Shown here: positions 20,701 through 23,700 of the stretch, piece after piece
How the letters are laid out: every line of letters starts with the position of its first letter
Position numbering within the stretch: position 1 is the stretch's first letter
Origin: Owenia fusiformis
Taxonomy: Eukaryota > Annelida > Polychaeta > Sabellida > Oweniidae
Direction: 5' to 3'
DNA: 64,000 nt
Assembly: GCA_903813345.2 (NCBI GenBank)
Contig: CAIIXF020000002.1
Span: forward strand, 8,081,555-8,145,554
The notes under the pieces: generated by a model
Told to the model about the DNA's origin: nothing
What the model saw: the letters and a program-made list of their open reading frames with translations, nothing else
The model's database searches: none
Made by a program: the position numbers and the translations under genes

Positions 20701-23700
20701 TTAGCAACTTTTTTAAAGCTTGCTAGAGTCTGCACATCTCATTTCATTTTAATTAGTCAATCAGATGCTACATTATACCATATAAACTCACCCAGAGGAG
20801 AGAATTTTAGAGAAAGAGTCAAATCGCAACACTCGACCATCAACATCCATAGAGAGGAATGAAGGGGACTTTGTCTGAAATAGAGAGAGGAATGATGGGG
20901 ACTTTGTCTGAAATAGAGAGAGGAATGAGGGGGGCTTTTTCTGAAATAGAGAGAGGAATGATGTAGACTTTGTCTGAAATAGAGAGGAATGATGTGGACT
21001 TTGTCTGAAATAGAGAGGAATGATGGGGACTTTGTCTGAAATAGAGAGAGGAATGATGGGGACTTTGTCTGAAATAGAGAGAGGAATGATGGGGAACTTT
21101 ATCTGAAATAGAGAGAGGAATGATGGGGACTTTGTCTGAAATAGAGAGAGGAATGAAGGGGACTTTGTCTGAAATAGAGAGAGGAATGATGGGGACTTTG
21201 TCTGTAATAGAGAGAGGAGTGATGGGAACTTTGTCTTAAATAGAGAGGAATGAGGGGGACTTTGTCTGAAATTGAGAGAGGAATGATGGAGACTTTGTCT
21301 GAAATAGAGAGAGGAATAACGGGGACATTGTCTTTTGTCTGAAATAGAGAGGAATGATGGGGACTTTGTCTGAAATAGAGAGAGGAATGAGGGGGACTAT
21401 GTCTGAAATAGTAAGAGAGTAATGGGGATTTTGTCCGAAATAGAGAGAGAAATGGTGGGGACTTGTCTGAAATAGAGAGAGGAATAATCGGGACTTTGTC
21501 TGATATAGAGAGAGGAATGAGGGGGACTTTGTCTGAAATAGAGAGAGGGATGATAGGGACTTTGAAATAGAGAGAGGCATGATGGGGACTTTGCCTAAAA
21601 TAGAGAGAGGAATGAGGGGGACTATGTCTGAAATAGTAAGATAGTAATGGGGGGGATTTTGTCCGAAATAGAGAGAGAAATGGTGGGGACTTTGTCTGAA
21701 ATAGAGAGAGGAATAATGGGGACTTTGTCTGATATAGAGAGAGGAATGAGGGGGACTTTGTCTGAAATAGAGAGAGGGATGATGGGGACTTTGAAATAGA
21801 GGGAGGAATGATGGGGACTTTGCCTAAAATAGAGAGAGGACTGAGGGGGACTTTGTCTGAAATAGAGAGAGAAATGATGGGGACTTTGTCTGAAATAGGG
21901 AGAGGAATGATGGGGACTTTGTCTAAAATAGAGAGAGGAATGAGGGGGACTTTATCTGAAATAGGGAGAGGAATTATGGGGACTTTATCTGAAATAGAGA
22001 GAGGAATGATGGGGACTTTTTTGAAATAGAAAGGGCTTTGTCTGTCTGAAATCTTTAATAGAGAGCTGGTTAAAGAGGGTGATGGGGACTTTGTTTAAAA
22101 TAGAAAGGTATGATGGGAACCTGTTTAGAATCCGAGAGATCAATTAGCCATTAATTTTCAGAGGGTTTATTAGCAGGTCAGGTTAATCCACATAAGAGCC
22201 TTAAATTTTTACATACATGTATGTTTATGTCTCGAGTATATCAATATAAAATAGAAATGTAGATGACAAGATTATCTTGTACTTACCTTAGAAAACTGTA
22301 GGAAGTAGTAGGGGTCATCTTCCAATACTAAGAGGCCGTAATCTTGAGCAATCTAAAAATTCATTGAAAAAACCAATGCAATGAATATTTTGCTTCCTAG
22401 ATATATAAATCTAAAGTGTTATTTCAAGAACGATATTTAGTCTAACAATGTGATTGCATTTACAAAACTGATTCATTTTAATATTTTTTCAACTGACTCT
22501 TTGAGTGTCATCTTTCAATGGAAGCAAAACTTTCCTATCTCTAGGCAAGGAATGCATTCAATCTAATCTCTTGAGAGTCTATGGTTAACCTCGTGAGTCC
22601 CAGGCTCTAAAATCCTTTGAAACCAGAGAATTTTTCATTTTTGCCACCTTTTGACACTTTACTACATACCTGTACAACTTTAGATGCTCAAATTAGTAAA
22701 AAAAATTAGACGGCACAGATCATTGGGCCAGATCATTTCTACACATTTTAAAACAATTTTTGTGAAAATTGGATGAAAATTGTTCAAATAAGAGCAATTT
22801 TAGTGAAAAATTTTGTGAAGGATTTTGTTTTCATTCTGGGATTCAAGGTAATTTCTGATGTGATTAGAAATCTTGTCACTCCAGGCCGTCAACAGGTTAA
22901 ATGTAATAATATTCTGTAAGGGAGCGACATCTTTTATTTAACAAAAAACAATCTATGGTCACTGTTCCCCATCAAATATAATGGTGCTTTACAACTGCTT
23001 TAATGTAACAAAAATAATCAATGAAACCACATCAAAACTTCATAAAATACAAACAAACAAAAAACATACTTGATATATTTCCTGCTTTCGTTCAGTTGTT
23101 AAGGAAGCTCCAGTGGGATTTACTCCATTTGGTATTGTGTAGATAATTTTGGGGATATCAGAATTTTTGTCAAACTTTTCATCTGGGCTCCACCTGCTTA
23201 ATATTTTACGTAAACTCTTTGGCTGCATGCCGTACTGGTCCGTGTTAACCCCTAATAGATTAACCCCTAAAGGCCTAAGCTGTAAAGAAATGGGTTTTTG
23301 TTAACTCGTACATGTACTCAAAGAAACACAGATTTGATCATTTGAGCATTGAGTATACACTTTAGTACTTAAAGAAACACAGTTTTGATTACTTGTACAT
23401 TGAGTATACACATTAGTACTCAAAGAAACACAGATTTGATCCCAATGTACATTGAGTAAACACTTTAGTACTAAAAGAAATACAGATTTGATCACTTGTA
23501 CATTGAATATACACTTTAGTACTCAAGAAAATACAGATTTAATCACTTGTACATTGAGTATACACTTTTGTACTCAAAAAGAAATACAGATTTGATCATT
23601 TGTACATGGAGTATACACTTTTGTACTCAAAGAAATACAGATTTGATCACCTGTACATTGAGTATACACTTTAGTACTCAAAGAAATACAGATTTGATCA

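Follow-up and report, generated by a model that had tools for sequence, protein, structure and literature searches.

A minisatellite of the mirage class built from the intron 7-exon 8 boundary of a spiralian AADAT gene

INTRODUCTION

Tandem repeats that carry a splice site in every unit have been described in amphioxus and, in donor-side form, in human genes. Passages of one report describe both acceptor-side and donor-side boundary repeats in amphioxus globins, BflGb6 and BflGb9 among them, together with earlier cases in Adh3, the units of which span 10 to 72 bp (PMC3087553). The same passages describe these repeats, termed mirages, as subject to concerted evolution and to length and somatic instability, and suggest from globin RT-PCR and Adh3 data that regular splicing is undisturbed, cryptic use being possible (PMC3087553). 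Part of a second report adds an amphioxus case in troponin C and a similar one in PGBD5 (PMC3902484). In passages on human F7, the 37-bp repeats of intron 7 use only their most upstream donor (PMC6627357), while the title of a 1995 report states that the IFI6 (6-16) minisatellite provides multiple splice donors (listed in PMC2572611). Tandem splice sites also occur at the repeat borders of polyubiquitin UBC, according to PMC10809524.

Here we describe an array of this kind at exon 8 of an AADAT gene, within a 64-kb window (the whole stretch of DNA that was analysed). Like the amphioxus mirages, the AADAT array is a minisatellite-like duplication of an intron-exon boundary together with its splice signal, and, judged from its sequence, it belongs to this known class. 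Like BflGb6 it is of the acceptor type, combining the end of an intron with the beginning of an exon; BflGb6, however, is described in passages of PMC3087553 with 6 and 3 units of 150 to 160 bp in two haplotypes, whereas AADAT carries ~35 units, mostly of 31 to 33 bp. Human F7 intron 7 likewise has repeated splice sites next to a coding exon, but the F7 array lies on the donor side and varies in repeat number. The IFI6 repeats differ in offering donor sites, with use of more than one suggested by that title, and UBC differs, according to PMC10809524, in that its repeats are coding and its AGGT sites act stochastically as both donor and acceptor. What is new here is the spiralian host group, a first frequency of such arrays in an unselected sample, and the finding that this frequency is at chance level. 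Among the titles and abstract openings listed, none was noticed on boundary-spanning minisatellites in a spiralian, which proves no absence, and the passages of PMC3862624 on cone snails contain no boundary-spanning repeat.

AADAT intron 7 offers the spliceosome some 30 tandem acceptors, more than half of which score as well as the one presumed to be used. To our knowledge, splice-site choice has mostly been studied with few competing sites at once. The exon-proximal rule, the dependence on branch points, and the growth of introns by tandem duplication all become testable at this locus with ordinary RNA data, and spiralian mirages widen the known range beyond amphioxus and the human donor-side analogues.

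RESULTS

The AADAT gene and the end of intron 7

An earlier note on this DNA had named the gene AADAT, and the identification is supported: a joined model of ten exons, running from 25160 down to 17984, gives an open frame of 314 residues, of which residues 8 to 313 align to structures of human AADAT (e.g., 2xh1; phmmer E value, 1.6e-123). We retain the exon numbers 7 and 8 of that note; the 5' end of the gene may lie beyond the model built. The junction between exons 7 and 8 passes through the human AADAT alignment without a gap, and from this protein homology we infer that the last acceptor of intron 7 is the one in use. Exon 8 does exist at the end of the array, as the note had said, but its exact span is corrected here to 20792-20874. 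The lysine of its SFSK segment is presumably the cofactor-binding residue, and accurate splicing of exon 8 should therefore matter. The features that define the locus are as follows.

17984-25160, minus strand: AADAT gene, ten exons found, open model (the true gene ends may lie further out)
22287-22352, minus strand: exon 7, 66 nt, donor AAG/GTAAGT
20875-22286, minus strand: intron 7, 1,412 bp, mainly array
20792-20874, minus strand: exon 8, 83 nt, donor GG/GTGAGT, coding for the SFSK segment
20875-20876, minus strand: AG of the presumed exon 8 acceptor, giving the gap-free join to human AADAT
22022-22139, minus strand: outer degenerate units, with no AG at the aligned acceptor positions (wraparound alignment and acceptor scoring)
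20875-22021, minus strand: 35 regular units, every one combining ~24 bases derived from the exon with TATTTCAG, or a variant, as its acceptor end (wraparound alignment)
20851-20874, minus strand: the opening 24 nt of exon 8, which form the partial unit that closes the array (wraparound alignment)
21370-21823, minus strand: a seven-unit block present twice, at 21823-21595 (229 bp) and 21594-21370 (225 bp)
20908-20909, minus strand: AG of the next upstream acceptor, predicted use of which adds 33 nt in frame (11 amino acids)

A second AADAT minisatellite, with a 51-bp unit, fills 1,072 of the 1,130 bp of another intron (window 23314-24385) and touches neither flanking exon (one ending at 24410, the other starting at 23279). 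At 18664-18731 of the window lies a 68-bp intronic piece that matches the middle of the following exon (18580-18474) at 95.6% identity, a two-copy exon-fragment duplication that by eye has no acceptor of its own.

Anatomy of the array

TRF places a 33-bp repeat of 36 copies at 20851-22030 (85% matches), and from 22030 inward the array occupies 1,156 bp of the 1,412-bp intron 7. Wraparound alignment resolves 35 regular units plus the partial unit contributed by the exon, so that the roughly 35-fold amplification claimed in the earlier note is borne out by both methods. Read in the direction of the gene, each unit consists of ~24 exon-derived bases followed by ~9 intron bases that end in TTTCAG; the tandem unit thus straddles the intron-exon boundary, as in other mirages. 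The splice signal is likewise retained in the copies, both by acceptor score (17 of 30, below) and by the AG itself, which is kept at the acceptor position in 31 of the 35 unit ends, including the presumed used one. The unit length of 33 bp given by the note holds for 22 of the 35 units, whereas the remaining 13 have other lengths (31 bp in four); the full range is 30 to 40 bp, and the three units nearest exon 8 each measure 33 bp.

Alignment also upheld the claim that exon 8 opens with the last unit of the array: its first 24 bases constitute the terminal partial unit, are identical to one array unit over 24/24 bases, and match at least 22/24 bases in 18 of the 35 units. Outside the array, no site on either strand of the 64-kb window reaches 20/24 to the exon 8 start. 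The two seven-unit blocks agree at 219 of 225 aligned bases (97.3%, with 4 gap columns), an identity which indicates that the array was enlarged by block duplication as well. Since the 31-bp form of the unit has the CCTCTCTAT run in common with exon 8, these comparisons suggest that the founder unit was 31 bp long and that CT was gained afterwards. The array locus has one match in the single assembly examined.

The exon as the source of the unit

A 20-base core of the unit, searched with up to 2 mismatches across the 498-Mb genome, returned at least 35 matches, 32 of them inside the array; all three of the others carry 2 mismatches, and a reversed-pattern control returned 0 matches in the same genome, in which withheld stretches read as N. 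The PSFLS codons within the unit correspond to PTFLS of human AADAT. An AADAT-like paralogue (L010) lies ~300 kb away on the same contig and has an 83-nt exon at the matching intron position and phase. TRF found no comparable array before this paralogous exon, just a 19-bp repeat of 2.1 copies. Because the unit contains conserved AADAT codons and the paralogue intron is without such an array, the sequence comparison identifies AADAT exon 8 as the source of the unit.

Strength of the array acceptors

The matrix used to score acceptors was drawn from 47 sites of this genome, with AADAT supplying 9, the paralogue 3, and chaperonin genes 35; it is somewhat circular in that the chaperonin acceptors were selected by a rule favouring pyrimidine tracts. 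The presumed used acceptor of exon 8 scores 8.61, exceeding 60% of the 47 matrix acceptors, and 17 of the 30 AG-bearing upstream acceptors of the array score as high or higher. Among 418 other AGs around AADAT, by comparison, just 8 reach the score of the exon 8 acceptor, six of them being true acceptors of other AADAT exons. Most units resemble full acceptors because the pyrimidine-rich start of the exon provides the tract for the next AG. The earlier note had written of dozens of near-perfect acceptors; the strong ones are real, although "dozens" proved slightly high. In the consensus unit the sole GT lies within AAAGTCCC and offers no usable donor; the upstream acceptors would therefore compete for the single donor of exon 8.

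Predicted outcome of upstream acceptor use

Any upstream acceptor would lengthen exon 8 by at least 33 nt. Twelve of the 30 predicted joins are in frame, and 9 stay open across the exons found, with 11 to 165 added residues, while the other 21 reach a stop. The three nearest upstream acceptors (33, 66, and 99 nt added) are all open, and some use of the nine open acceptors could escape notice. The upstream acceptors show no sign of purging in the sequence, given that AG is retained in 31 of the 35 unit ends. A strict YTNAY branch-point match stands at −19 of the acceptor for an exon start at 20907, and none was found between −45 and −15 for the presumed used acceptor. Branch points of animals are loose; this pattern nevertheless argues mildly against a simple exon-proximal account.

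Boundary arrays in the paralogue and in a Hox gene

The genome contains boundary arrays in other genes, two of which we describe here.

L010, 3448-3791: donor-side array where the following exon of the paralogue ends, 30-bp units (TRF, 11.6 copies)
L014, 479-1497: acceptor-side array running into a homeobox exon that starts at 1481, 76-bp units (TRF, 13.4 copies)

The units of the paralogue array each hold the exon end plus the donor; 11 copies lie within 3 changes, and 10 of them have the GT. Its first donor is GTAAAA, and most of the later donors are GTAAGA or GTAAGG. The paralogue's own exon 8 (L010 4347-4429) reads SFENT where AADAT has SFSKI. From its sequence the paralogue seems to have lost the cofactor-binding lysine, and it is possibly a non-catalytic relative or a decaying copy.

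In the Hox gene, which we take to be Antp-like by its homeodomain, 8 copies of the unit lie within 3 changes, and 7 of these 8 keep the AG. Among the 14 homeobox loci that were run through TRF, this was the only array noticed across the edge of a homeobox exon. Amplification of exon edges therefore recurs in this genome as judged from these sequences, and the AADAT array is not unique. The homeodomain matches of the genome include one with a Lox5 KLTGP tail and two that are Lox4/Lox2-like, which we take to be spiralian marks. By the evidence of these Hox genes, the host of the array is a spiralian and not amphioxus, and thus stands outside the cephalochordate host range of the reports cited above. 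A search for the GFP family, abundant in amphioxus, gave no match, but its control matched in none of 14 genomes, and the search carries no weight.

Frequency of arrays at splice boundaries

We estimated how often arrays overlap splice boundaries in a sample that was not picked by its arrays, namely, 60 matches to the Cpn60/TCP1 family and 29 to the proteasome family. The chaperonin set comprises 45 of the 60 matches, in 30 loci examined, with the other 15 left out; two of its matches (C8:24993385 and C3:19347324) are very long and have putative gene structures. The proteasome set includes all 29 matches in stretches of ~1 kb each, which clip arrays. Arrays were counted at a period of at least 15, a length of at least 60, and at least 75% matches. 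Splice boundaries were called by rule, so that some are misplaced (the acceptor of a PSMB5-like gene was corrected), and those below the score limits were dropped, so that 81 of 90 chaperonin exon ends and 51 of 58 proteasome exon ends remained.

Arrays overlap 6 of the 81 chaperonin boundaries, where random placement expects 6.9 (probability of reaching the observed number, 0.69), and 2 of the 51 proteasome boundaries, where it expects 2.2 (probability, 0.67). Pooled, 8 of 132 called boundaries are overlapped (6%; 95% interval, 2.7 to 11.6%), against about 9 expected by chance. The splice site itself is copied in 7 of the 8 overlaps, with 12, 9, 5, 4, 2, 2, and 2 copies by motif count. In the exception, the degenerate 48-bp array at C10:13377174, a search with its 22-base donor motif that allowed 6 changes found no further copy, and we count this array as an overlap only. 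Judged by eye, the genes with copied sites presumably include CCT1, CCT2 (twice), CCT8, PSMB5, and a PSMA. Among 11 boundary arrays, 4 have units whose length is divisible by 3, or 3 of 10 when C10:13377174 is set aside: about one third.

The idea that splice boundaries are hot spots for arrays is unsupported in this small sample, in which overlap equals random placement (P values of 0.69 and 0.67). Chance-level overlap and a one-third share of frame-preserving units fit near-neutral arrays and lend no support to a dedicated mechanism. Because the same kind of copying occurs in several other genes, what we see at AADAT appears to be a side effect of tandem duplication and not a one-off.

Genome searches with triple motifs gave 303 matches to CAGGTAAG against 65 to its reversed control, and 217 to TTTTCAGG against 58; these are counts of overlapping matches and not of arrays, long arrays contribute heavily to them, positions are listed for the first of them only, and we derive no rate from them. 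At G000:C1:53780640-53784944 two or more segments hold long 48-bp arrays, where CAGGTAAG recurs among the matches listed.

DISCUSSION

We consider it most likely that the duplicated boundary has become a near-neutral intronic mirage, that the exon-proximal acceptor is used, and that use of the upstream acceptors is rare. A short tandem duplication across the edge between intron 7 and exon 8 of AADAT would have started the array, which slippage and unequal exchange would then have expanded into a minisatellite within the intron. Exon definition with the exon 8 donor would lead the spliceosome to the acceptor nearest the exon, as is reported for human F7 intron 7, where the donor repeats form the mirror image of this arrangement. 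Upstream acceptors would be used rarely and their products mostly discarded, because 21 of the 30 lead to a stop. The array itself would be near-neutral, one among many overlapping splice boundaries at about the rate of random placement.

The strongest rival holds that the upstream acceptors are appreciably used, that the alternative messages are mostly degraded, and that copy number thereby tunes AADAT output. The scores of 17 of the 30 upstream acceptors, the mixture of 21 joins that reach a stop with 9 that stay open, and the better branch-point match of the acceptor at 20907 are all in keeping with such tuning. We nonetheless judge it unlikely, since the passages on amphioxus Adh3 and on globin RT-PCR suggest regular splicing (PMC3087553), those on F7 report use of only the most upstream of the repeated donors (PMC6627357), and boundary arrays in our sample are neither commoner than random placement predicts nor biased toward preserving the frame. 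A broader form of the idea, in which several percent of splice boundaries lie in active arrays across thousands of genes and copy number tunes the use of decoy acceptors and hence output, strikes us as improbable; were it true, the tuning of gene output would evolve quickly, with AADAT exon 8 as an extreme example.

It is very improbable that the array encodes an 11-residue repeat, read in frame as part of a longer exon 8, and we reject this as the main account. The three exon-nearest units are indeed 33 bp long and open, and an open frame of 202 codons extends from 21396 to 20788. Yet 13 of the 35 units differ from 33 bp, 21 of the 30 upstream starts meet a stop, human AADAT has no insert at the corresponding place, and the exon of the paralogue begins at the matching point. 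That a dispersed satellite landed by chance beside exon 8, for which the repeat-rich window (47 TRF rows, some overlapping) could be cited, is scarcely credible and is rejected, since the unit core is essentially private to the array (at least 32 of 35 matches in the 498-Mb genome) and the exon part of the unit is conserved AADAT coding sequence.

Among other features of the window is an open frame of 564 codons at 28274-29968, which by eye resembles the part of a retroelement that ends in reverse transcriptase and RNase H.
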